IMG/VR virus record: IMGVR_UViG_3300044695_005756
Coordinates: 1-64,000 of that record
Length of the DNA stretch: 64,000 nt
From: a virus
Direction: 5' to 3' (one strand)
In this document: positions 27,993 through 42,541 of the stretch, one piece after another
Position numbering within the stretch: the first letter of the stretch is position 1
Layout of the letters: each line of letters begins with the position of its first letter
Notes under the pieces: generated by a model
Seen by the model: the letters and a program-made list of their open reading frames with translations, nothing else
Told to the model about the DNA's origin: nothing
Database searches by the model: none
Made by a program: the position numbers and the translations under genes

Positions 27993-28426
27993 GATTTAGG
28001 ATACTTTTCTTTAATTGAACGAATTTTATTTGTCATGGCAGTCATATCATCACCACCTTTCCAAATCGCATCCAACTGTTCAGCTATTGGTGGATACTCA
28101 TTTTTTCGTTTTACATAATAATCAGGAATCTCAGGTCGAACAATTTCCGATTTACTTATGTCCGCAACGGTAACTTGCCGAGACATTGGATTAGTAATTT
28201 CTCTCGTCTTTGGAGACAAATTATTCCATTCAGTTTCTTTTCTATCTATCTCAGCACATATTGCAGCTTCTTTTGATTGTATGAAACTTGTCAAATCTGT
28301 ATCTAAATTTGATGGAATAAAAATAGCCCAATCATAGACTTCTCCGTTGTGTTCTACTGTAAGTTGTGCTAATAATCGATCATCGTTGGAACCAGCAGGT
28401 CCCAAGCCAGTTATCGCAACACTCAT
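27989..28426 (-). CDS. Virion-associated protein with YPPIAEQLDAIWKGG motif
   Basis: 145 residues. The N-terminal half is beta-rich (VAITGLGPAGSNDDRLLAQLTVEHNGEVYDWAIFIP). The C-terminal half has KRKNEYPPIAEQLDAIWKGG followed by MTNKIRSIKEKYPKS, a helix motif seen in many phage tail-fibre or fibre-assembly proteins (EYPxIxDQLDxLxxGG...I..VK.KYPK). Probably a fibre-associated structural protein or assembly factor. ATG with GAGGC upstream; coupled by ATGA overlaps to both neighbours. Confidence 0.65.
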   Translation of the reverse strand: MSVAITGLGPAGSNDDRLLAQLTVEHNGEVYDWAIFIPSNLDTDLTSFIQSKEAAICAEIDRKETEWNNLSPKTREITNPMSRQVTVADISKSEIVRPEIPDYYVKRKNEYPPIAEQLDAIWKGGDDMTAMTNKIRSIKEKYPKS

Positions 28427-29766
28427 TTAACTGCCTCCAGTCTAAAGTTTTTACCAGGATGTTTTCCTGTTTGTGGTAATATCTTAACGTCTTTAAATCC
28501 AACAGACTTACACAAGTCTGTAAGTGTTTTTGGTGTATATCCCCATAGATGTGGATACAATGCACCTCGTTCTTCTGTTTCAGCACTCTTCTCTTCGGCT
28601 GCTGCACCAAAGATACAAGTCAGAGTCATGATTCTATCTTCATCATCTTGTTGTAGAAAATCTTGACAGAGTTCCTCAATATGTGGAGTTTCAACTACTA
28701 ACTTGCCTTTAGGCTTGAGTGTTCTGTACCAATTAGAAATAATTTCTGGCGCACGATGTTGAGGCAAATGTTCAATCAAGTGACTAGCTAAAATCTCTTC
28801 AGTAACATTTTCAGGCAAGTCCATCTTCATTACATCAATAATAATATCGGCTTCTTTACTATTCTTATCAACATTTAGATAGCCTTCAAGCTTGTCGTTG
28901 CCTGAGCCCATGTTAAATCGAATAGGTTCTTTATTCTCAATCTTATGTGCAATGATAGACTTGTAAGCGGTACCATCAGGCAGTCGATTAACCCAACGCT
29001 GATCGATGAATTCTTTATCATCCATAGTCAAGCGTCTTGTTGGTTTAATATTTGTATAGTATTTTGTCAAGTCAACTGAAGGATGCGCTGTGTACATGCC
29101 ACTAGCTAAATCCATGTGCAGACATTGAACGTCAGTATTTACAAGAAGTTTTGTTCCTCTCTTGTGTAAACGATGTACAAAGAAGTTGTCTTCACCAATA
29201 AATGGAATTTCATCATTGATGTTGTTACCGATACAGCAGAATGGAAGTTCTGGATCTTCTTCTTTCATCTTTTTCAACAGATCAACTGGAATTAACATAG
29301 CATCCATACCTGTTTGCCATGCTTCAATGATTTGTCCAGGATCAACATTTGGAATTACAATCCAATCATTTTCTCTTGTCATAATCATTGCGTCGGAACA
29401 TTTAATATAGTAAACACCAGTAACGACAGCACCAGGATTCTCTTCAGCCGTTTTCATAAGTTTTTTAAATCCATCATAAGGAAGAACTGTATCTTCACCT
29501 ACAAACAAAAGATACTTTGCTCCACTTTCAAGTGTTTGTTCAATGAGATAATTTCTTGCAACATCAACTTTTTCTCCACCAATATTACAGTAGCCGTGTG
29601 AGAAACCCATCAAATCGATATGAAGTCCATCATAACCATCAAAATTTTGTGCCGCTTTTTCATTCAAATCTCTTCTTGGTTGTGCTATGACTACATAGGG
29701 CTTAATTGTTCTTGACTCACTATAAATTTCTTTCATTGTGTCAATAATTTTATCTCTGCTATACAT
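28423..29766 (-). CDS. Glycosyltransferase - SAM methyltransferase fusion
   Basis: 447 residues with two domains. Residues about 20-235 look like a GT-A glycosyltransferase: an IAQPRRD opening, FVGEDTVLPYDGF at 89-100 in the place of the nucleotide-sugar DxD, IGEDNFF at 190-196, and CLHMD at 215-219. Residues about 282-445 are a class I methyltransferase of the small-molecule/sugar type: FNMGSGNDKLEGYLNVDKN (glycine motif, Asp300), ASHLIEHLPQ at 327-336, LKPKGKLVVETP, and a LYPHLWGYTPKTLTDLCKSVGF ending. Such fusions build or cap glycans. It sits upstream of the small fibre genes and next to the propeller proteins, so I infer it modifies phage fibres or host surface sugar. Its stop overlaps the next ATG. 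Confidence 0.78.
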   Translation of the reverse strand: MYSRDKIIDTMKEIYSESRTIKPYVVIAQPRRDLNEKAAQNFDGYDGLHIDLMGFSHGYCNIGGEKVDVARNYLIEQTLESGAKYLLFVGEDTVLPYDGFKKLMKTAEENPGAVVTGVYYIKCSDAMIMTRENDWIVIPNVDPGQIIEAWQTGMDAMLIPVDLLKKMKEEDPELPFCCIGNNINDEIPFIGEDNFFVHRLHKRGTKLLVNTDVQCLHMDLASGMYTAHPSVDLTKYYTNIKPTRRLTMDDKEFIDQRWVNRLPDGTAYKSIIAHKIENKEPIRFNMGSGNDKLEGYLNVDKNSKEADIIIDVMKMDLPENVTEEILASHLIEHLPQHRAPEIISNWYRTLKPKGKLVVETPHIEELCQDFLQQDDEDRIMTLTCIFGAAAEEKSAETEERGALYPHLWGYTPKTLTDLCKSVGFKDVKILPQTGKHPGKNFRLEAVK

Positions 29767-29794: not shown

Positions 29795-32700
29795 TTAAAG
29801 ATTACCATTAAAATATGCTGCTGTAACAATTCCTAAAGGAACTTCCGCTCCTGTTGAAATTTTTTGTCCTACTTCTGCATTATACGGAACGAAATGAATT
29901 TCACCATTTGGCATAAGAACACCTCCTCCATGAGCTACAAATGAATTAGTATACACTAAAGAGTATGTAGACACAATACCTGAAGCGGATATTTTTTGAC
30001 CTACAATTGCGCTGCCTGGAACAAAGTGTACGTCACCATTTGGCGCAAGAACTGCACCTTCATAATTAAATTGATTACCGTATTTTACAGGCGTGGTATA
30101 TTGTTGATTTTTAACGATAAAGACTCTTCCTAAGCCATCCGAGTATTGAAATACTAAATGTCCATCCGCGTCTATTGTAGCATTTTTACCTTGAGGATTA
30201 AAAGTACCAAAAAAAGGACCTGTATTGTAATATTCAGTAAAAAATCCATTTGGAAACATTCTTGATGGAAGAGGAGCTAAATGAGGAATAAAATAAATTG
30301 ATCCATCAGGAAGTAAAACGCTTCCCCAATTCGTGCCTCCCGTGTAATTTGTGTTTATGAGTGAATATGTTGAAACTACACCTGTTCTTGATATTTTTTG
30401 TCCAACAAGGGCTTGAAATGCAGCAAAATGAATTTCGCCATTTGGAGCAAGAGTACCTCCAATATAAGCTGATGTAGTGGTATATGCTAATGCATACGTT
30501 GATACAACTCCGCTAGCGGATACTTTTTGCCCTCTTACAGCGTTATAAGGAACAAAATGAATGTCGCCGTTTGGTGCAAGAACACCACCAGAATAAAGAT
30601 TGGGATTCGCTGCTGATGTTGTGTAAACTAATGCATATGTCGATGCAACACCATCAGCAGATATTTTTTGTCCTCTGTTTGCATTATACGGAACAAAATG
30701 AAGTTCACCATTTTGTGAAAGAACTCCACCATAATATCCAAACGAAGTAGTATATGCCAATGCATACGTTGATATTATGCCATTCACGCCGTTATTATTA
30801 AACAATGAACCTCGATCAACATTTCTTTGCAGAGTTCTGTTTAAACTTATCTCAGCTTGCTCGGAAAGGTATTGTTCTATCGATGGATTAACAAGATCAG
30901 CATAATAAGTAGTCCCATTTGCAGCTGGATAAGATGCGGTAGTATCAGTAGAAACTAAAGTACCAGGTAAAGATTTTGGTAATATTGTAGCAGTTAAAGC
31001 TTTTTTCGCTTTTGTGAAAACTGTTTGTCGTGATATGAGTTCGTATTTTCCAATTCCTAACGAATAACCAACGGGAACAAGTGATTGAGGATAAATTGAA
31101 CTGGCATATGGAATAACATTTGAAGTGTCTGAAGAATCATGCGCTCGTCTTATAAGGACATTTGGTTTATTGACCAGCTTCATCCCATATCGCTGAGTAG
31201 TTTGTTGAATAAAATACACATCTCCAGATTCGGAAAGAACGCCTCCTTGATGAATACGCTGCAATATCGGATACGTTGATATTACACCAGCGGATGATAT
31301 TTTTTGACCGACTTGTGCGGAATCTGGAACAAAATGAACATCGCCTCGACTATCAAGAACACCACCACGGTATGCACCACTTCCAGAGGTAATTACTAAT
31401 GAATACGTCGATACTACACCAGCGGATGATAATTTTTGTCCTCTGTTGGCAAAATAAGGAACAAAATGAGTGTCACCATTTGGTGCAAGAACACCACCCC
31501 AATAAGACGCACCAGCGGTATACACTAATGAATATGTCGATGTAACACCATCAGCAGATATTTTTTGTCCAACTCTTGCACTATAAGGAACAAAGTGTAC
31601 GTCACCGTTTGGCGCAAGAACACCACCTTGATAAGCAGTAGCAGTTGTGTATACCAACGAATATGTTGAAACATAAATGGGCACACTTTCGTTAGTTAAT
31701 AATTTCTGGCCTCTATTTGCATTGAAAGGCACAAACTGAACATCTCCACTAACATCAAGAACACCACCAGCATATGCAGCGGCTGTTGTGTACGCTAATG
31801 AATATGTTTGTACGATTCCATCGGAAAATATTTTTTGTCCTACTCTTGCAGAATCTGGAACAAAATGAATACTGCCATTACCGTCAAGAACACCGCCATC
31901 ATATGCAGCGGTTGTTGTGTACGCTAATGAATATGTTGTAGGATATTGAGATAAAAATTTATTGAACTCTATAACTTGTCCAACTTCTGCTTCATATGGA
32001 GCAAGATAAAAGGTGTTGCCTGTACTATCCATGGCACCACCAAGGTATGGCTGATTGGAAGCTGTGTATGCTAATGCGTATGTTGATACAACACCATCAG
32101 AAGAAACTTTTTGTCCTACTTTTGCATTATAAGGTGCAAAATGTATATCTCCATTATATGCTTTTCCGCCATAAGCATATGCACTAGAAGTTGTGTATAC
32201 TAATGAATATGTAGACACGACACCAGCAGAAGAAACTTTTTGCCCTCTGTTTGCAAGGAGTGGCACAAAATGTATATCTCCGTTGTTATCAAGAACACCA
32301 CCCGAATATGCAGCAGTAGTAGTATACACCAATGAATATGTTGATACAACACCAGCAGAAGAAACTTTTTGCCCTCTGATCGCACTATAAGGAACAAAAT
32401 GAACATCGCCGTTACTATCAAGAACACCACCTCGATAAGCACCAGAAATCGTATATACCAACGAATATGTTGATATGATACCAGCGGATGATATTTTTTG
32501 TCCTCTTGTGGCAGAAAAAGGCACGAAATGAATGTCGCCATTGTTATCAAGAACACCACCATTGTATGCGGAACCAGCGGTTAATACTAATGAGTATGTC
32601 GATACGACACCAGCAGAAGAAACTTTTTGTCCAACTCTTGCACTAAAATTTACAAAATGAATATCACCATTGTTATCTAAAACGCCACCTTCATACGCAT

Positions 32701-34150
32701 TAGTAACTGTATGAACCAATGAAAATGTTGATACTACGCCAGCAGACGATATTTTTTGTCCTCTGTTAGCATCATTGGGTATAAAATACACATCACCATT
32801 ATTATCAAGAACGCCTCCAGCATATGCACCACCAGACGTTGTATATACTAATGAGTAAGTTGTAGGATAGTGTTCAAGTGTGACATCAAATTGTAACTTT
32901 TGTCCTACTCTTGCACTAAAAGGTACAAAATGTGCTTCGTTATTGTTATTTAAAACACCGCCATCATATGCAGCAGAAGCGGTAGTATATGCTAATGCAT
33001 ATGTTGACACAACTCCTGACGATGAAATTTTTTGCCCTCTAGCGGCACTAAGCGGAATAAAATGTACATCGCCATTCGGTGCAAGAATACCGCCAGCGTA
33101 TGCAGTAATAGATGTGTATACTAATGAATACGTCGATACTACACCAGCAGATGATAGTTTTTGTCCTATATCCGCATTATAAGGAACAAAATGTATATCA
33201 TCGTTATTATCTAAAATACCTCCTTTATACTTCGCAAGAGCGGTACTGTTTACTAAAGAGTATGTTGTTATAACACCAGCAGACGATATTTTTTGTCCTA
33301 TGACAGCATTAAAGGGCACAAAATGAATATCGTTATTACTATCTAAAACACCACCGTTATATGCATTAGTAGCTGTATACACCAATGAAAATGTTGACAC
33401 GACACCAGCAGACGATATTGTTAGTCCTCTATTTGCATTATAATTTACAAAATAAATGTCGTTATTATTTGCAAGAACACCACCAGAATATGCACCAGCA
33501 GTTGTATATACTAACGAATACGTTGATGGAACTTGAGGTGCGAATCCATTTGGAGTTACTTTTTGTCCTCTGTTTGAATTATATGGCACAAAATATACAT
33601 CGCCATTCGGTGCAAGAACACCACCAGAATATCCAAAATTAGACGTTGTGAATATTAATGAGTAAGTTGTTATAACACCAGCAGATGATATCATTTGTCC
33701 TCTAGTGGCATTCCGAGGCACAAAATGTATATTACCAAGAGCGTCTAGAACTGCTGCACTCCAAAAATTAGCTCCAGATACTGAATAAGGATAAGTAAAT
33801 ACTGTACCATCTGTTGTTATTCTTATTCCTCTATCACCATCTACATTTACAATATGAATTTCATTATTGCTGGTGCGAACTGCTCCCGCAAGCTCACTAA
33901 CAGAGACAGAGGCTGTGCGGAGTGCATCATTATATGAATGAAGAACTTGAGGATAATCTACAAGAGTTGCTGTACCTACTTCCCATTTATCACCATCGAC
34001 AATTGAATAGTCAAACTCATCACCCATTGAATAGGTTGCAGCAGAAATTTTTTCGACATTGGCCGAACTCAATCTTATATTGGGTTCGAACGCATCTTCA
34101 CGCTGTGAAAAAGTACCTGTTTGTGATCTATCTTTTACTTGGCGTGCCAT
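29795..34150 (-). CDS. Giant beta-propeller tail protein, 21+7 blades (1451 residues)
   Basis: The largest of three tandem paralogues. The N-terminus ends with YSIVDGDKWEVGTATL, part of a tail-fibre N-terminal domain. A first array of 21 repeats of about 43 residues follows; core AY.GGVLDNNGDIHFVPF.A..GQK.SSAGVVSTYSLVYTT, the sequence of a four-stranded propeller blade. Four odd linkers break the array after blades 3, 8, 15 and 17 (about 33540, 32890, 31955 and 31690). A spacer (about 30780-31180, containing GIGKYELISRQTVF) leads to a second array of 7 blades (29800-30775). Probably a host-surface-binding fibre; no enzyme motif. Neighbours are two shorter paralogues upstream and the glycosyltransferase-methyltransferase downstream. 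Confidence 0.85.
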   Translation of the reverse strand: MARQVKDRSQTGTFSQREDAFEPNIRLSSANVEKISAATYSMGDEFDYSIVDGDKWEVGTATLVDYPQVLHSYNDALRTASVSVSELAGAVRTSNNEIHIVNVDGDRGIRITTDGTVFTYPYSVSGANFWSAAVLDALGNIHFVPRNATRGQMISSAGVITTYSLIFTTSNFGYSGGVLAPNGDVYFVPYNSNRGQKVTPNGFAPQVPSTYSLVYTTAGAYSGGVLANNNDIYFVNYNANRGLTISSAGVVSTFSLVYTATNAYNGGVLDSNNDIHFVPFNAVIGQKISSAGVITTYSLVNSTALAKYKGGILDNNDDIHFVPYNADIGQKLSSAGVVSTYSLVYTSITAYAGGILAPNGDVHFIPLSAARGQKISSSGVVSTYALAYTTASAAYDGGVLNNNNEAHFVPFSARVGQKLQFDVTLEHYPTTYSLVYTTSGGAYAGGVLDNNGDVYFIPNDANRGQKISSAGVVSTFSLVHTVTNAYEGGVLDNNGDIHFVNFSARVGQKVSSAGVVSTYSLVLTAGSAYNGGVLDNNGDIHFVPFSATRGQKISSAGIISTYSLVYTISGAYRGGVLDSNGDVHFVPYSAIRGQKVSSAGVVSTYSLVYTTTAAYSGGVLDNNGDIHFVPLLANRGQKVSSAGVVSTYSLVYTTSSAYAYGGKAYNGDIHFAPYNAKVGQKVSSDGVVSTYALAYTASNQPYLGGAMDSTGNTFYLAPYEAEVGQVIEFNKFLSQYPTTYSLAYTTTAAYDGGVLDGNGSIHFVPDSARVGQKIFSDGIVQTYSLAYTTAAAYAGGVLDVSGDVQFVPFNANRGQKLLTNESVPIYVSTYSLVYTTATAYQGGVLAPNGDVHFVPYSARVGQKISADGVTSTYSLVYTAGASYWGGVLAPNGDTHFVPYFANRGQKLSSAGVVSTYSLVITSGSGAYRGGVLDSRGDVHFVPDSAQVGQKISSAGVISTYPILQRIHQGGVLSESGDVYFIQQTTQRYGMKLVNKPNVLIRRAHDSSDTSNVIPYASSIYPQSLVPVGYSLGIGKYELISRQTVFTKAKKALTATILPKSLPGTLVSTDTTASYPAANGTTYYADLVNPSIEQYLSEQAEISLNRTLQRNVDRGSLFNNNGVNGIISTYALAYTTSFGYYGGVLSQNGELHFVPYNANRGQKISADGVASTYALVYTTSAANPNLYSGGVLAPNGDIHFVPYNAVRGQKVSASGVVSTYALAYTTTSAYIGGTLAPNGEIHFAAFQALVGQKISRTGVVSTYSLINTNYTGGTNWGSVLLPDGSIYFIPHLAPLPSRMFPNGFFTEYYNTGPFFGTFNPQGKNATIDADGHLVFQYSDGLGRVFIVKNQQYTTPVKYGNQFNYEGAVLAPNGDVHFVPGSAIVGQKISASGIVSTYSLVYTNSFVAHGGGVLMPNGEIHFVPYNAEVGQKISTGAEVPLGIVTAAYFNGNL

Positions 34151-34153
34151 GTC

Positions 34154-37100
34154 TTATAACTTATTGAAAAATGGACTGAGAACAATTTCTGTATCCAATG
34201 GTCGACTAAATGTGTATAGTTTGTACTGAGTTGCATCATTACGAATCGCAATTATGTTTCCATCAAAATCTAAATTTGCTCCAATACAAAGTGGTGTTCC
34301 AGAAATCAAAGGTGATGTGATTAACGATTGTATGCCAGAAGGCGTAATTTTTAAAATACCTGATGTTCCATTATAAGGAACAAAGTATATGTTTCCTGCT
34401 GGATCTAAAACACCACTTTGAAAAGCACCAGCAGTTGTGTATACTAATGAATATGTAGACACAACACCAGCAGCAGAAACTTTTTGCCCTATAGTTGCAG
34501 AATGAGGCACAAAATGCACATCGCCATTTGGTGCAAGAACACCACCAACGTAAGCATCGGCAGCAGTATATACTAAAGAGTATGTAGACACAATACCTGA
34601 AGCGGATATTTTTTGACCTACGATTGCGTTGCCTGGTACAAAATGCACATCGCCATTTGGTGCAAGAACACCACCAGCATATGTATCAGCAGCAGTATAT
34701 ACTAATGAATATGTTGATACAACACCAGCAGCAGAAACTTTTTGTCCGACTATCGCGTTGCGTGGAACAAAGTGAATATCACCATTTGATGCAAAGATGC
34801 CACCAATATATGCTAAAGATGTTGTGTAAACTAATGCATATGTCGATACAACACCAGCAGCAGATATTTTTTGCCCTACTGTTGCGTTACACGGAACGAA
34901 ATGAACATCACCATTCGATGCAAGAACACCACCAGCATATGCATAATTAGCCGTTGTGTACACCAATGCATATGTTGATACTGCACCGTATTGAGATATT
35001 TTTTGACCTCTGTTAGCACTATCTGGAACAAAATGAATATCACCATTAAGTGCAAGAACACCACCCCAGTATGCACTAGCAGTTGTGTATACTAATGAAA
35101 ATGTAGACACTACAGGATTTTTAAATGTTGTTCCTGCCGTAATACTCTTCATCCACGCTCTTTGAAGTCCTCTCCAAGAAGTCAACGTGGAATTAATTGA
35201 TGAATCATCTCCTGTTGGAACAGCGCCTTGCACAACACTTGAAGGTAACGGTATGAATACGTCTTTTATTCCTGATGAAAAATTCACTTTGTCTGGAACA
35301 TTGGCAGTTACATTAGATGATGAAATGACTAAATCTCTACTCAATGTTGAAGCAAGTCTTTGTCCAACTGTTGATCCAAAAGGAACAAAATGTAATTCAC
35401 CTTGTTTATCAATAACACCACCGTTATATGCTAAACTGCCAGTCGAAGTAAGTGGATAAGTTGATACGACACCAGCAAGAGATATTTTTTGTCCAATTCC
35501 AGAATCGTAAGGAATAAAATGAACTTCTCCATCGCGTGTTTGAATACCGCCACGATAGGCAGTACTGCCTGTATTTACCAATGAATACGTTGATACAACA
35601 CCGTATTGAGATATTTTTTGTCCGACTGTCGCACTACTTGGCACAAAATGCACATCGCCGTTTCGTGCAAGGACACCACCGTCATATGCGCCAACAGTCG
35701 TATACACAAGTGAATAAGTTGATACGACACCAGCAAGAGATATTTTTTGTCCTCTGATAGCGTTATTTGGTATAAAATGTACATCACCGTTTGGCGCAAG
35801 AACACCACCAGCGTATGCACCAGCTGCGGTAGTATATACTAATGAATATGTTGATACTACACCAGCTGATGATAATTTTTGCCCCCTATTACCGACAAAA
35901 GGAACAAAATGAACATCGCCGTTACTATCAAGAACACCACCTCGATAAGCAGTAGCAGTTGTGTATACCAACGAATATGTTGAAGAAAATATTGAGAAAA
36001 ATTTGTTAAACTCCGCTACTTGTCCTACTGTAGCAGAAGAAGGAACAAATTGTAATTTATTTTGGCCGTCTAGAACACCACCATTGTAATGTCCAGGTGA
36101 AGTTCGTACTAATGTATATGTCGATACAACGCCAGCAGATGATATTTTCTGTCCTCTTGTAACACCATTTTGCACAAAATGTACATCGCCTCGACTATCA
36201 AGGACACCACCACGATATGCACCACCTCCAGAAGTAATTACTAATGAATATGTTGATACTACACCAGCGGATGATAATTTTTGTCCTACTCTTGCTTCAT
36301 AGTTTACAAAATGTATATCACCTCGACTATCAAGAACACCGCCGGAAAAAGAGCGAACTGTGGTATACACCAATGAATATGTTGATACTACACCAGCAGA
36401 AGATACTTTTTGTCCTCTGTTTGCACTAAAAGGAATAAAATGAACGTCACCATTTCTGTCTAATACTCCACCAGAATATGCAAAAGATGCCGTATATACT
36501 AATGGGTATGTATAAGTGCCAAACTGATCCAACTTTAGTCCTACTCTTGCATTATAAGGAACAAAATAAATGTTTCCATTGCCATCATAAACACCTCCAT
36601 CATAAGCACCGCCAACAGTATATGCTAAATCATAAGTTGATGCGACACCAAGGTAATTCACTTTTTGTCCTATGTCGGCATTATAAGGAACAAAATGAGT
36701 ATCGCCTAAAAAAAGTCCATCAAATACTCCTCCAGAATATGCATTCAAAGTGGTGTACACCAAATCATAAGTTGATACAACACCAGCAGATGATATCATC
36801 TGTCCTACAGACGCATTAAAAGGAGCGAAATGAATATCCTTTCTATCATTCAAAGCACCACCTTGATACGCTAAAGACACGGTGTAAACTAAAGGATATG
36901 TGCTAGAATAAACTTCGGGCGTGATATCGAACTGTAACTTTTGTCCTATACCAACACTATAAGGAATAAAATGCATTTCACCAAGACGATTTACTACACC
37001 CTCAAAATATGCACTATCAGCGGTATGCGCCAATGAGTATGTTGATACAACGCCGTATTGAGATATTTTTTGACCGACTTCCGCACTATAAGGAACAAAA

Positions 37101-37381
37101 TGAACGTCAGCATTTCCTGAAATAGTTGGCGCAAGAACACCGCCTGCATAACCATTTCCAGTTGTGTACACTAATGAATATGTTACAGGAACTTGATACA
37201 TTGATACTGTTCCTATTCCAACCTCAAAAGCATTTCGATCTTCGATTGTGTAATAAGTTTGATTATTATGACATACGTTCGCAAATGATTGATAACCTGA
37301 AACTGCGTAATCAAGTGTTACGTTTCCTGTTCCAGTTGTATTTGTTGTGACGAACGCTCTATCTAAAGCAACAAAAGCCAT
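34154..37381 (-). CDS. Giant beta-propeller tail protein, 14+7 blades (1075 residues)
   Basis: The N-terminal about 63 residues match a widespread phage tail domain (TTNTTGTGNVTLDYAVSGYQSF, then YYTIEDRNAFEVGIGT). Fourteen propeller repeats follow (about residues 77-678). The interrupted domain then resumes with LSRDLVISSSN (680-690) and VNFSSGIKDVFIPLPSS (about 699-715). After a short spacer come seven more repeats to the C-terminus, which ends LSPFFNKL like the neighbour's LSPFLNKL. In the first array two unusual linkers (residues 149-160 with LQFDITPE, and 456-468 with AEFNKFFSIFSS) enclose exactly seven blades. Role inferred as surface-binding fibre. Four bases separate it from the next gene. 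Confidence 0.85.
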   Translation of the reverse strand: MAFVALDRAFVTTNTTGTGNVTLDYAVSGYQSFANVCHNNQTYYTIEDRNAFEVGIGTVSMYQVPVTYSLVYTTGNGYAGGVLAPTISGNADVHFVPYSAEVGQKISQYGVVSTYSLAHTADSAYFEGVVNRLGEMHFIPYSVGIGQKLQFDITPEVYSSTYPLVYTVSLAYQGGALNDRKDIHFAPFNASVGQMISSAGVVSTYDLVYTTLNAYSGGVFDGLFLGDTHFVPYNADIGQKVNYLGVASTYDLAYTVGGAYDGGVYDGNGNIYFVPYNARVGLKLDQFGTYTYPLVYTASFAYSGGVLDRNGDVHFIPFSANRGQKVSSAGVVSTYSLVYTTVRSFSGGVLDSRGDIHFVNYEARVGQKLSSAGVVSTYSLVITSGGGAYRGGVLDSRGDVHFVQNGVTRGQKISSAGVVSTYTLVRTSPGHYNGGVLDGQNKLQFVPSSATVGQVAEFNKFFSIFSSTYSLVYTTATAYRGGVLDSNGDVHFVPFVGNRGQKLSSAGVVSTYSLVYTTAAGAYAGGVLAPNGDVHFIPNNAIRGQKISLAGVVSTYSLVYTTVGAYDGGVLARNGDVHFVPSSATVGQKISQYGVVSTYSLVNTGSTAYRGGIQTRDGEVHFIPYDSGIGQKISLAGVVSTYPLTSTGSLAYNGGVIDKQGELHFVPFGSTVGQRLASTLSRDLVISSSNVTANVPDKVNFSSGIKDVFIPLPSSVVQGAVPTGDDSSINSTLTSWRGLQRAWMKSITAGTTFKNPVVSTFSLVYTTASAYWGGVLALNGDIHFVPDSANRGQKISQYGAVSTYALVYTTANYAYAGGVLASNGDVHFVPCNATVGQKISAAGVVSTYALVYTTSLAYIGGIFASNGDIHFVPRNAIVGQKVSAAGVVSTYSLVYTAADTYAGGVLAPNGDVHFVPGNAIVGQKISASGIVSTYSLVYTAADAYVGGVLAPNGDVHFVPHSATIGQKVSAAGVVSTYSLVYTTAGAFQSGVLDPAGNIYFVPYNGTSGILKITPSGIQSLITSPLISGTPLCIGANLDFDGNIIAIRNDATQYKLYTFSRPLDTEIVLSPFFNKL

Positions 37382-37390
37382 AATTTTTCT

Positions 37391-39817
37391 TTAAAGTTTG
37401 TTTAAAAATGGACTAAGACAAGCATTTACAGGCAAAGGATTAACCGAAAGCGTTGCAATTTTTTGTCCTACTACACCAGAAAAAGGTGCGAAGTATATAT
37501 CACCGTTTGGCATAAGCGCACCACCGATATACGCACTTGCAACAACATACGGCAATGAGTATGTAGACACAACTCCAGAAGTGGATATTTTTTGACCTCT
37601 GTTGGCAGCAAATGGTATAAAATGTACATCACCGTTTGGCGCAAGAACACCACCAGCATATGCAGTAGCGACAGTATAAACAAGTGGATATGTCGATACA
37701 GCGCCATCAGCAGATATTTTTTGTCCTCTGTTTGCTGAATGAGGCACAAAATTTATGTCGCCATTAACTGCAAGAACACCACCAAGATACGCAGCAGCAA
37801 TACTGTACACTAATGAATATGTAGACACGACACCAGCGGCAGAAATTTTTTGTCCTCTGTTTGCATTAAATGGCACAAAGTGTACGTCACCGTTTGGCGC
37901 AAGAACACCACCAGCATATGCGGTAGTGGCTGTGTATATCAACGAATAAGTCGATACGACACCAGATGACGATATCATTTGTCCTCTGTTAGCTGAGTAA
38001 GGTACAAAATGTATGTCGCCGTTCGGAGAAACAACGCCTCCAACGTAAGCATCGGCAGCAGTATATACTAAGGAGTATGTTGACACAACGCCTGAAGCAT
38101 TTATTTTTTGACCTCTGTTAGCACTTCGCGGCACAAAATGTACATCACCGTTTGGTGCAAGAATACCGCCATAATACGCATTAGCGACTGTATGTAATAA
38201 AACATAAGTGGATGGAATACCCAACTTCGAAAGTTTTTGTCCTCTTACAGCGGAATGTGGCACAAAGTGTGTGTCACCATTTGGTGCAAGAATTGCTCCA
38301 GCATATCCAGAAGCAACAGTATATGGTAATGTAAATGTTGATGCGATACCAGCAGTATTCGCATTATCGTATGCATTTCCACCTAAAGCACTCTGTTCCA
38401 ATAAACCTCTAAATGGTTTCCATCCTGATAAATTAGAATCGATTTCATTATTATCAAATGTTGGTACTCCACCGACAGCAATCGAATTTGGATATACGAG
38501 TGAAATGTTTGCCGATGTAGTTAGATTGCTAGGCGATAGATAAATTGCTTGTCCGTTGTTCGATGAATCGAAAATTTTATCTCTTGTAATCGCATTTACT
38601 AAAACTCTTTGTGCTGCCGTAGCACTATGATTTGCAAATATAATTCCAATGTCATTGTTTGATGACAACGCTCCACCAAATAAACCAGCGGTTGATGTTA
38701 CTGCTAATGAATATGTGGTAAATATACCTAAACTTTGATCATATACAGTACCTACTCTTGCGCTATACGGAACAAAGTGAACATTACCATTTCTGTCCAA
38801 TACTCCGCCGGCATATGCATTTGTTGTTGTATAAGGTAATGGATATGTGGAACTTGAGACTAACGCAAGCATAACTGACGCATTATATGGAATACAATAT
38901 ACTTCACCAGGATAATTAGCAGAGAATGATCTCACTACGCCACCAATATATGCACCCGCTGTTGTGTACGGAAGACCATAAGTGGTTGCAATAAAATTGG
39001 CCATGTATTGCCCTACTTGTGCATTGAATGGAACAAAGTAGTTTCCGCCATTAACAGTATATCCACCTTGATATGCGCCTGCAGTAGTATATGCTAACGC
39101 CCAAGTTGATGCAATTGTATTAGTAGTGTCAATTGTTTGTCCTACCGCTGCGTTATACGGAACAAAATGAATATAGTAAGGATATGTGACTGTATCGACA
39201 ATTCCACCAGAATATGCACCAGCAACTGTGTATGCTAAAGAGTATGTTGACACAATACCTGCCGATGATACTTTTTGTCCTCTGTTGGCATTATAAGGAA
39301 TAAAATGTACTTCATTATCCCCACCAAGAACACCGCCCTGATATGCACCAGCAACTGTGTATGTTAATGGATATGTTGATACAACACCTGCCGATGATAC
39401 TTTTTGTCCTCTTGTGGCAGAAAAAGGCACGAAATGAATGTCGCCATTAGCGTCACGAACTGCTCCAGAATACGCTGTAGTTGCGGTTGCGGTAACGGCA
39501 AATGTTGAAACTATTGGAGATTTTCCGCGGTATGTTGCTTTTCCTATTTCCCATTCACCATTTTTAGGCTCAAGAGAATAATAAAACTCACTATTAAGAC
39601 TTCCCGAATAATCATTATCTACAAAAGCAAAATTTTTATATCCTGCAATCGTATAAGGTTTATACCCACTATAAGCTGGAATTCGTTCGTTATCGGTAAA
39701 GTTAGAAAAGTTTAAACCATCAGGATTTACTGGAGATGGTGTGTTCGCAAGAACCAGTGTTGAATTGCCACCAGAAAAAGTATTTCCACGTGTTCTACTA
39801 TTAAAAATTATCGTCAT
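37391..39817 (-). CDS. Beta-propeller tail protein, 7+7 blades (808 residues)
   Basis: The simplest of the three paralogues. The N-terminal about 100 residues include YYSLEPKNGEWEIGKATY, the first half of the tail domain. Seven blades follow (about 39500-38590), without the odd linkers. The second half of the domain (ITRDKIFDSSNNGQAIYLS, about 38580-38340) separates them from a second seven-blade array (38330-37400). Blade core: AYAGGVLAPNGDVHFVPFNANRGQKI. The C-terminus, LSPFLNKL, is shared with the 1075-residue neighbour. Probably part of the adsorption apparatus. No signal peptide or catalytic motif is visible. Confidence 0.85.
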   Translation of the reverse strand: MTIIFNSRTRGNTFSGGNSTLVLANTPSPVNPDGLNFSNFTDNERIPAYSGYKPYTIAGYKNFAFVDNDYSGSLNSEFYYSLEPKNGEWEIGKATYRGKSPIVSTFAVTATATTAYSGAVRDANGDIHFVPFSATRGQKVSSAGVVSTYPLTYTVAGAYQGGVLGGDNEVHFIPYNANRGQKVSSAGIVSTYSLAYTVAGAYSGGIVDTVTYPYYIHFVPYNAAVGQTIDTTNTIASTWALAYTTAGAYQGGYTVNGGNYFVPFNAQVGQYMANFIATTYGLPYTTAGAYIGGVVRSFSANYPGEVYCIPYNASVMLALVSSSTYPLPYTTTNAYAGGVLDRNGNVHFVPYSARVGTVYDQSLGIFTTYSLAVTSTAGLFGGALSSNNDIGIIFANHSATAAQRVLVNAITRDKIFDSSNNGQAIYLSPSNLTTSANISLVYPNSIAVGGVPTFDNNEIDSNLSGWKPFRGLLEQSALGGNAYDNANTAGIASTFTLPYTVASGYAGAILAPNGDTHFVPHSAVRGQKLSKLGIPSTYVLLHTVANAYYGGILAPNGDVHFVPRSANRGQKINASGVVSTYSLVYTAADAYVGGVVSPNGDIHFVPYSANRGQMISSSGVVSTYSLIYTATTAYAGGVLAPNGDVHFVPFNANRGQKISAAGVVSTYSLVYSIAAAYLGGVLAVNGDINFVPHSANRGQKISADGAVSTYPLVYTVATAYAGGVLAPNGDVHFIPFAANRGQKISTSGVVSTYSLPYVVASAYIGGALMPNGDIYFAPFSGVVGQKIATLSVNPLPVNACLSPFLNKL

Positions 39818-39826
39818 GTTATTTTA

Positions 39827-41179
39827 TCACGCTACTATTGGCTGAGTGGGTTCTACATTTCCAATTATAATACAACTTGTAGAACTAGTAAATATTACTG
39901 TTGCAATTCCTCTAGGAGAAAGAGGCGTATATGGAATATCATAATCATGTCCAGCCACAAATGCATTTGTAATGCTACATGTTATTATAACATCAGCACT
40001 TGTGTTATTGATGATTGTGATGACATCTCCATCCGCAAAAACTCCATTAGGAATAATAACTGATCCGCCTTCTTTTATACTTATATACTTTCCTATATCG
40101 GTTAAAGCTAATGTATACTCTGAAGTTTTTTGTCCATTGAATGGTATATTTCTGAAGCCTACTGTAAAATCTTCGTCTGGAAAAGTTGCTGTTCTAGATG
40201 CAGTCAAAGTTTTTGGAGTTAGTGTCATGGTATATCCACCAGGTGCTGTTGAACCTCGAAGTGATATACTGTCATACCCAACTGCTCGTTGTACTTTTAG
40301 TCCGTTTGGATGTCTTATGGTAACAGCACCCGTAACTATTCCACCATTGTTAGCGTCTAATGAGTTATTCGCACGAATAAATCCAGAATTCGCATGATTA
40401 AATGCTGCATTTGTATGAATGTAAGCAGAATTCGCTTGAATGAATCCTGAATTCGCGTGAGCAAAAGCCGCATTGATTTGATCAAAACTTGAATTTGCGT
40501 GATCAAATGAAGAGTTAGTTTTTATGAATCCGCTGTTTGCATGATTAAATGCATAATTTGCGTGTAGATATGCGCTATTTGCTTGTATAAATCCAGAGTT
40601 GGCATGAATGAATGCTGCATTTGCTTGTATGAATCCAGAATTGGCATGAATAAATGACGCATTCGTATCATGATAAGCAGAATTTGCTTGAATGAAACCT
40701 GAATTTGCGTGATCAAACGCCGCATTTGTTTTTATGAATCCACTATTTGCGTGATTAAATCCAGAATTTATGTGGATGTAAGCGGAGTTTGCTTGAATGA
40801 ATCCACTATTTGCATGACTGAATGCCGGGTTAATTCTTTCAGCAAGTTGTAAAACATTTGCGCCTTTTTGATATAGTTCATTGGCGTAAACGTAAATGCT
40901 TGAGATATTTCTACCGACTGTTAAGTCGAGCTGAATGGTTACATTGCTTTTATCAAAGTTCGTGTTTGCAATATTACCAGTATTTGCACGAAGTGTATTA
41001 ATGTTCGCGTGATTACGAACATTTAATGATGAGCCTGCTCCCTGAATAAAAATGGCAGAATTGGCAATGAAACCACCACTCGTATTACTTGTTAAGTTAT
41101 TAGCGACTTCAATTAGAGAAGAGGTCGCTGATAACCATTCAGTAAAGTTATTAGAAGTTGAAAGTTGATTTATTGCCAT
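39827..41179 (-). CDS. Heptad-repeat fibre, 450 residues
   Basis: Begins with a tail-fibre N-terminal domain (NQLSTSNNFTEWLSATSSLIEVANNL, then NINTLRANTGNIANTNF and LDLTVGRNIS, about residues 1-95). A shaft of [A/T]-N-x-x-[F/Y]-x-x heptads follows (about 125-275), then RANNSLDANNGGIVTGAVTI, and a C-terminal beta domain (GGSVIIPNGVFADGDVITIINN, ITCSITNAF, SPRGIATVIF). The C-terminal domain matches the giant fibre and the 88-residue single-domain protein. It is a paralogue of the next gene upstream (41195-42541) along its whole length. Probably a trimeric fibre. Confidence 0.8.
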   Translation of the reverse strand: MAINQLSTSNNFTEWLSATSSLIEVANNLTSNTSGGFIANSAIFIQGAGSSLNVRNHANINTLRANTGNIANTNFDKSNVTIQLDLTVGRNISSIYVYANELYQKGANVLQLAERINPAFSHANSGFIQANSAYIHINSGFNHANSGFIKTNAAFDHANSGFIQANSAYHDTNASFIHANSGFIQANAAFIHANSGFIQANSAYLHANYAFNHANSGFIKTNSSFDHANSSFDQINAAFAHANSGFIQANSAYIHTNAAFNHANSGFIRANNSLDANNGGIVTGAVTIRHPNGLKVQRAVGYDSISLRGSTAPGGYTMTLTPKTLTASRTATFPDEDFTVGFRNIPFNGQKTSEYTLALTDIGKYISIKEGGSVIIPNGVFADGDVITIINNTSADVIITCSITNAFVAGHDYDIPYTPLSPRGIATVIFTSSTSCIIIGNVEPTQPIVA

Positions 41180-41194
41180 TTTTTTATAAACTTG

Positions 41195-42541
41195 TTATGT
41201 GATACCTGATGTTATGCAATAATTGGGCTCAAGGAACATTACTGTCGCAACTCCTTTTGGCAAAATATTTGCTGATGTGATGATCGTATCTTTGCCAGCT
41301 TTATATGCAGTAACTCCATAAGTGAGACCCACATTCGCTGAAGAGTTGTTTACGATAATTACCACATCGCCGTTCGAAAACGGTTGAGTTGAGTAATTTG
41401 GAATATTTATATAAGTTTGTCCAAACCCTGGAGCATTGTCAGAAACTTCAATAAATTTACCAATTTCAGTCGGATTAATTGTAGCATTCTGATCGGCTAA
41501 TGTTCGGGATATAGGCACATTTCTGAAGCCTACTTCAAAAGTTGAATCTGGAAATTCTACGGTTTTGTCAACCGTAAGAATGCCTCCACTCGTTAAAAGA
41601 AAATCATATGAAGCAGATCCGCCTGATCTACCTTTAAGTTCTATGGAATCTTCTAATACACCGTTTTGAGATTTAACACCATCAACAGCCAGAATTGTTA
41701 CAGCACCCGTAACTGTTCCGCCATTGTTAGCGTCTAATGAATTATTAGCACGAATGAATACAGAATTCGAACGATTAAAAGTTGCATTAGCGTGATCAAA
41801 CGCTGAGTTTGTTTGAATAAATCCACTGTTCGCGTTATTAAAAGCAGGCGCCATGTGAATCAAAGCATGTTCTACTGGTACATTCGCTACATTTATTTTA
41901 ATAAACTGCGAATTCGCGTGAATAAATCCACTGTTTACATGATCGAACGCAGCATTAATTTGTATAAAATCGCTGTTCGCATGATAGAATGCAGAATTTG
42001 TTTGAATGAATCCACTATTTGCGTGATTAAATGCATAATTTGTATGCAAATAAACAGAATTCGCTTGTATGAATCCAGAGTTGGCGTGAATAAACGATAC
42101 GTTTGTTTGGTTAAATTCAGCATTTGCATGAATGAATGCTGAATTGGCGTGAATATATAATGAATTTGATTGTACGAATTGTGAATTTGCCTGATTAAAT
42201 GCTGCGTTAGGCTCAACCAATATTCCAATAACATAAAAATTTTCACTATGTCCTTCGTCGGTAGATAAATTTCTTCCTACCGTTAAATCTAATGCTATTG
42301 ATACGTTCGATCCATCAATATTGGTATTTGCAATATTACCAGTATTTGCGCGAAGTGTATTAATATTCGCTAAAGTGCGAACATTAAGAGAAGAGTTTGC
42401 ACCTTCAATAAAAATAGAACTATTCGCTAAAAATCCACCGTTAGTGTTGTCGGTAAGATTGTTAGCGACCGCAATTAAAGAAGATGTTGTCAGCAACCAC
42501 TCTTCAAAAGTGTTTGCTGACGAGACTTGATCTATTTTCAC
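41195..42541 (-). CDS. Heptad-repeat fibre, 448 residues (paralogue)
   Basis: Same layout as its neighbour: N-terminal TFEEWLLTTSSLIAVANNL domain, NINTLRANTGNIANTNI, LDLTVGRNLS, a heptad shaft (about residues 120-255), RANNSLDANNGGTVTGAVTI, and the C-terminal beta domain (INIPNYSTQPFSNGDVVIIVNN, LPKGVATVMF). The shaft is more degenerate than in the other fibres (for example HMAPAFNNANSGF), suggesting an older or less constrained copy. Start is GTG at 42541, one base after the stop of the upstream coiled-coil gene. The two paralogues may form a heterotypic fibre or recognise different receptors. Confidence 0.8.
   Translation of the reverse strand: MKIDQVSSANTFEEWLLTTSSLIAVANNLTDNTNGGFLANSSIFIEGANSSLNVRTLANINTLRANTGNIANTNIDGSNVSIALDLTVGRNLSTDEGHSENFYVIGILVEPNAAFNQANSQFVQSNSLYIHANSAFIHANAEFNQTNVSFIHANSGFIQANSVYLHTNYAFNHANSGFIQTNSAFYHANSDFIQINAAFDHVNSGFIHANSQFIKINVANVPVEHALIHMAPAFNNANSGFIQTNSAFDHANATFNRSNSVFIRANNSLDANNGGTVTGAVTILAVDGVKSQNGVLEDSIELKGRSGGSASYDFLLTSGGILTVDKTVEFPDSTFEVGFRNVPISRTLADQNATINPTEIGKFIEVSDNAPGFGQTYINIPNYSTQPFSNGDVVIIVNNSSANVGLTYGVTAYKAGKDTIITSANILPKGVATVMFLEPNYCITSGIT

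Follow-up and report, generated by a model that had tools for sequence, protein, structure and literature searches.

How do neighbouring genes of one virus come to encode proteins with 14, 21 and 28 propeller blades? The question is raised by three adjacent open reading frames (ORFs), here called A, B and C, in a 64,000-nt window (the whole stretch of DNA that was analysed) at positions 1 to 64,000 of the 94.5-kb virus record IMGVR_UViG_3300044695_005756. The three ORFs lie on the minus strand, as do all of their parts described below, and their size ascends in transcription order from A to C. Gene A (37391..39817; 808 residues) consists of a divergent N-terminal half-domain, a 7-blade insert, a second half-domain with a neck, and a C-terminal 7-blade propeller. 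Gene B (34154..37381; 1075 residues) has a half-domain, a 14-blade insert, a half-domain with a neck, and a C-terminal propeller, and gene C (29795..34150; 1451 residues) has a divergent N-terminus, a 21-blade insert, a mid-domain, and a C-terminal propeller. With a probability of roughly 0.62, we read A, B, and C as probable adhesin paralogues in which a hairpin of the N-terminal domain gained one propeller in A, two in B, and three in C, with the rings nested in B and C.

The blade unit comprises 43 residues, and arrays of 129-bp repeats were detected by Tandem Repeats Finder (TRF). An iterated blade hidden Markov model (HMM) counted 7+7 blades in A, 14+6 in B, and 21+6 in C. The seventh blade in the C-terminal set of B (PLISGTPLCIGANLDFDGNIIAIRND...) is degenerate, as is one blade in the final set of C, within the 58-residue tail behind the fourth blade of that set; both were assigned by spacing and by eye, outside the HMM calls. 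When these degenerate blades are included, the totals become 14 (7+7), 21 (14+7), and 28 (21+7). In none of the three proteins are the first and C-terminal arrays contiguous, because a non-repeat stretch of 76–129 residues lies between them. The sequence-only reading of this DNA had counted first arrays of 7, 14, and 21 blades, each followed by a terminal seven, in adjacent genes ordered by size, and these claims are borne out. Its expectation of multiples of seven also extends to the relatives, which were collected as 75 loci from a scan of viral contigs and more from later scans: exactly seven blades are present in 190 of 208 arrays (complete ORFs of all fetched loci, window copies included), a regularity well above any chance level. 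The 18 exceptions include the window's own arrays, broken genes, and a few short arrays.

The blades are members of the virginiamycin-B-lyase propeller family. Pfam PF24684 (Vgb_lyase) matches C (1.3e-35, 123.1 bits), A (3.3e-23, 82.3 bits), and B (3.4e-18, 65.9 bits), all above its curated cut-off of 50 bits, and the solved relatives by sequence are streptogramin and virginiamycin B lyases (PDB 2z2o and 2qc5). The C-terminal propellers of A (37442..38341) and C (29846..30772; seven blades, one of them degenerate) were delimited by the blade HMM, with the aid of spacing in C. That of B (34202..35107) was modelled by AlphaFold2 (AF2) as a closed 7-blade ring, with a predicted local distance difference test score (pLDDT) mostly of about 75–88, and superimposes on Vgb 2z2o with a Z of 34.8 and a root-mean-square deviation of 2.3 over 294 residues. 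The phage propellers share with the lyases the profile match, the seven blades, and the modelled ring, whereas their sequence identity to them is 17–20%, and they sit in fibre-type proteins in multiple, apparently nested copies. A0A346A5X9, the best viral fold match, is an unnamed protein and was set aside because its TM-scores are poor (0.25). Among phage records, we found just weak matches, in two Cylindrospermopsis phages (32–34% identity), and a single scan by sequence pattern across bacterial and archaeal genomes gave no confirmed relative.

The location of the first array is indicated by a 147-position profile made for the shared N-terminal domain. In B, profile positions 3–79 precede the first array and positions 67–143 follow it, the latter with the neck at 35108..35335. 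The A and B proteins of the near relative L057, whose capsid protein is 95% identical to that of the window and whose baseplate wedge is 76% identical, are interrupted likewise. In A, the profile recognises the part after the first array (positions 68–146, with the neck; 38342..38593) and not the part before it. The divergent first array of A itself (38594..39508; seven blades by the blade HMM) resembles the L057 A insert (z 5.9–6.0 at offsets 0 and -1). The mid-domain of C (30773..31168) is divergent as well, and that of a related contig, L125, is 91% identical to it. The N-terminal domain is thus split at a hairpin, with the first array inside it; the evidence for this is clear for B, partial for A, and weak for C. 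The same hairpin site holds an insert in two genes of locus L066, in one of which a laminin-G domain was identified. A different insert is found near profile position 42 in six loci (L054, L062, L067, L076, L086, and L100), and the one in L054 was identified as an SGL/lactonase-like propeller. The N-terminal hairpin loops, and a region of a HANSxF-repeat fibre gene of L057 described below, behave as insertion hot spots. As far as the sequences indicate, the first arrays are guests in the N-terminal domain, and their origin as an outgrowth of the C-terminal propeller is not supported.

The evidence for nesting comes from the junctions between blades. Linker length was taken as the number of residues after the GQK motif. 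In other phages, it is 7–8 residues in 1016 of 1022 internal junctions, and no junction of the single 7-blade arrays exceeds the norm by more than 2 residues. In the first arrays of the window, 11–12 residues are found after blades B2, B9, C3, C8, C15, and C17, about 4 above the usual length, and 6–9 at all remaining junctions. When these six long linkers are paired as brackets, rings of seven blades result throughout, in the layouts 2+[7]+5 for B and 3+[5+[7]+2]+4 for C, which would mean that B received a single nested insertion and C two of them. In B, the proposed outer ring would begin with blades 1–2 (36905..37186), which end in the long linker KLQFDITPEVYS, and would be completed by blades 10–14 (35336..35983), as suggested by the blade HMM, a closing-blade profile, and a split test. 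Blades 3–9 (35984..36904), which end in the long linker VAEFNKFFSIFS, would form the inserted inner ring. In C, the proposed outer ring would consist of blades 1–3 (33527..33928; blade HMM and linker lengths) and 18–21 (31169..31669; blade HMM and closing-blade profile), and the middle ring of blades 4–8 (32864..33526) and 16–17 (31670..31939), which end in the linkers KLQFDVTLEHYP and KLLTNESVPIYV, respectively. Blades 9–15 (31940..32863), ending in the linker VIEFNKFLSQYP, would form the innermost ring. The linker after C8 is similar to that after B2, and the linker after C15 is similar to that after B9, with 67% identity over 24 residues in both cases. L125 has 11 residues at both junctions equivalent to C15 and C17.

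The closing-blade profile, which was correct in 158 of 160 cases on held-out loci, marks B2, B9, B14, C3, C8, C15, C17, and C21, with B13 and C1 marginal; in L068, a plain tandem of two propellers, it marks blades 7 and 14. In the split test, which used the single inserted ring of L057 B, blades 1, 2, and 10–14 of B were the best match of eight contiguous splits. Nested sevens are allowed by 51 of 4845 placements of the four linkers in C and by 6 of 78 placements in B, a joint chance of 0.08% if B and C are assumed to be independent. We infer the nested topology of B and C from the linkers and closing blades and not from a modelled structure.

Several points weigh against this reading, beginning with that assumption of independence: given the homology of B2 with C8 and of B9 with C15, the other two C linkers fit in 5 of 153 placements. 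The split test is weak, with scores of 0.038 for 2+5 and 0.036 for 3+4. The L057 A insert contains several long linkers despite having seven blades, and a long linker is therefore no proof of insertion; similarly, the closing-blade profile marks several blades in the single insert of the window's own A, so that its signal is not unique to nesting. The place of the inner insert differs between B (2+5) and C (5+2), and one shared event would need an extra step. In C, the split domain is only weakly seen, with the neck alone recognised by the profile (positions 92–147, 13.5 bits). The AF2 models do not show a nested topology. That of B has a mean pLDDT of 67, low in the outer blades; that of the C array has a mean pLDDT of 57.7, and its single good ring appears to skip blade 15 and was probably shaped by the input alignment. 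The earlier proposal that a whole propeller was inserted once in B and twice in C is supported by the growth in sevens and by the linker positions, but the AF2 models are not strong enough to establish the nesting.

If the first arrays of B and C were instead consecutive propellers (blades 1–7, 8–14, and 15–21), the topology would be the simplest one, and the long linkers would be topologically meaningless decorations. L068, with two successive propellers and one long linker at the 7/8 boundary, provides an example of such an arrangement, and the long linkers of the L057 A insert occur without extra blades. However, this arrangement predicts long linkers or closing blades after blades 7 and 14, and they are found instead after B2, B9, C3, C8, C15, and C17. 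Moreover, the L057 B ring matches B1–7 poorly (rank 2078 of 3432) but B1, 2, and 10–14 well (rank 40). We therefore consider consecutive rings unlikely, at about one chance in four in our judgement. A lower likelihood still attaches to independent local expansion, in which single blades were gained and lost by unequal crossing-over, multiples of seven survived, and no whole propeller was ever inserted. This explanation is favoured by the blade comparisons. The mean DNA identity between and within blade blocks is 0.68–0.74, short of the near-identity of blades that would mark recent amplification, and both amino-acid and DNA comparisons group the blades by neither ring nor gene, so that blades are mixed across genes and blocks. 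In a shift analysis, strong diagonals were obtained just for close orthologues, and no 7-blade shift was prominent inside the B or C array. Local homogenisation is also seen in L125, where neighbouring blades reach 0.93. Against local expansion stand the strict bracket pattern of the 11–12-residue linkers, the correspondence of the entry and exit linkers of B and C, which suggests units moving together with their ends, and the near absence of intermediate blade numbers among the 208 arrays.

The flat blade comparisons are consistent with exchange between blades, and because the blades are too homogenised, their similarity cannot decide on nesting. The inner blades had been expected to group together across genes; similarity tests made in place of a phylogeny were mostly uninformative on this point, although the best blade matches do cross genes. 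In L125 (L125:1-2637), the seventh and eighth blades of the visible array resemble each other with a score of 0.93, which the matching blades C18 and C19 of the window do not, a sign of local conversion, as judged from the sequences, that leaves the number of blades unchanged.

The blade counts might also be an artefact of collapsed or expanded repeats, since assembly is known to be error-prone at tandem repeats (PMC9218822). A possible case is L079:482-2920, which resembles L068 minus four blades (7+3 versus 7+7) through either a real deletion or a collapsed assembly. In the three-gene region of the window, however, exact internal repeats reach 53 bp at most, and L006, a second contig that may represent the same virus assembled again, agrees at 100% identity over 21,270 bp. 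Because of these two observations, an assembly error is unlikely. In addition, L125 retains the end of the C array with an equal linker pattern at 84–86% identity. Taken with this, an artefact seems very improbable.

The relatives bear on the order of events. In most loci of sufficient length, three genes lie in tandem and each ends in a single seven-blade propeller, and because most related loci already have three such one-propeller genes, the three-gene arrangement predates the extra arrays. Consequently, the order put forward in the sequence-only reading, in which duplication was followed by growth, is not supported. In contrast, the comparison that it suggested with related phages did yield a smaller stepwise version, as L057 has 7+7 blades in A, 7+7 in B, and 0+7 in C. 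Given one propeller per gene in most loci, the simplest reading is that the C array was gained in the window lineage, the alternative being its loss in L057. L125 keeps at least 10 blades of the C array, which is cut by the end of the contig. Among the close matches to the long linkers of B and C, just the identical contig and L125 carry them; the remaining matches are ordinary-looking blades. In a tree of C-terminal propellers, the three gene positions cluster, but the clades are not clean.

Some relatives show other departures from the common plan. A complete gene of L066 (L066:10973-12871) combines a six-blade C-terminal propeller, a rare exception to seven, with the laminin-G domain in its N-terminal hairpin. 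In three loci (L073:11478-14180, L160:11559-13871, and L161:10821-13107), the third propeller gene is broken inside blade 5, with an ORF ending in a glycine-rich domain, then a small ORF, and then an ORF carrying the rest of blade 5 and blades 6–7. The small ORF appears sulfotransferase-like by eye and contains a VRNPIERF motif (read in L073 and L160). A seven-blade ring is possibly built from two chains here. A group I intron was considered as the cause of the split and rejected, as no Rfam match was obtained.

With respect to mechanism, we propose that, in the window lineage, an exposed hairpin in the N-terminal domain took up the extra propellers, one in A, two in B, and three in C. In B and C, the inserted unit would be a full ring of seven blades together with both of its linkers, placed between two blades of a ring already present. 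Recombination between the 129-bp repeats could have provided the route, and the surviving products may be those whose rings still close at seven blades. The added rings may enlarge or vary a multivalent receptor-binding surface. A further version of this proposal, which we advance tentatively and at slightly under even odds, is that B and C are Russian-doll proteins of two and three threaded rings, respectively, produced by a mobile cassette of a ring plus its linkers that passed from one blade junction to another among neighbouring fibre genes and also reached other fibre families, such as that of the L057 HANSxF gene.

The window carries T4-like portal, sheath, terminase, capsid, neck, and baseplate wedge genes, and among named capsid proteins the closest come from cyanophages (62–64% identity). 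A photosystem gene, sought as a hint of the host, was found in none of five records. The propeller genes adjoin two adjacent HANSxF-repeat fibre genes (39827..42541, minus strand), which are related to tail-fibre PHROGs; a PHROG profile search gave no fibre match for A, B, or C themselves. A, B, and C are paralogues that probably serve a T4-like phage as tail fibres or adhesins. From their place among fibre genes, and because propellers commonly act as scaffolds for binding, we infer that they may bind a host receptor. In L057, two seven-blade propellers interrupt the C-terminal region of a HANSxF-repeat fibre gene (L057:323-3526), and in its window homologue (39827-41179) the same region is continuous and lacks propellers. 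The gene directly after C (28423-29766) shows weak glycosyltransferase and methyltransferase matches.

Several known systems resemble parts of this arrangement. In a known seven-blade propeller of a phage tail, the ring is interrupted between two of its blades by a further domain, either a nozzle or an immunoglobulin-like one, whereas here the insert would be a second propeller from the family of the first, and in C this would have happened twice. The eukaryotic proteins DDB1 and CPSF160 contain several propellers per chain that are not simply consecutive. Their propellers are strongly diverged, however, and do not form a growing series in adjacent paralogues as in A, B, and C. Highly repetitive propellers amplified from single blades also place many blades in one chain: a set of 15 was modelled as two rings (7+8), and one protein has 47 (PMC9218822, PMC6805158). 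Those blades are near-identical and are read as consecutive rings, in contrast to the diverged blades, multiples of seven, and linkers of A, B, and C, which point to insertion of whole rings.

In the usual view, propellers arise through multiplication of single blades in a row (PMC9218822, PMC6805158). Here, growth seems to proceed by closed rings, each placed between two blades of another, and close relatives carry stepwise versions. If this is true, the first arrays of 7, 14, and 21 blades would form a natural series in which to test how a repeat protein can become larger and still keep its fold. Phages may then vary their binding proteins by swapping modules, whether a propeller of the same family, another propeller, or a laminin-G domain, at a few fixed loops, and the proteins with which this phage probably grips cells would have been enlarged one whole wheel at a time.

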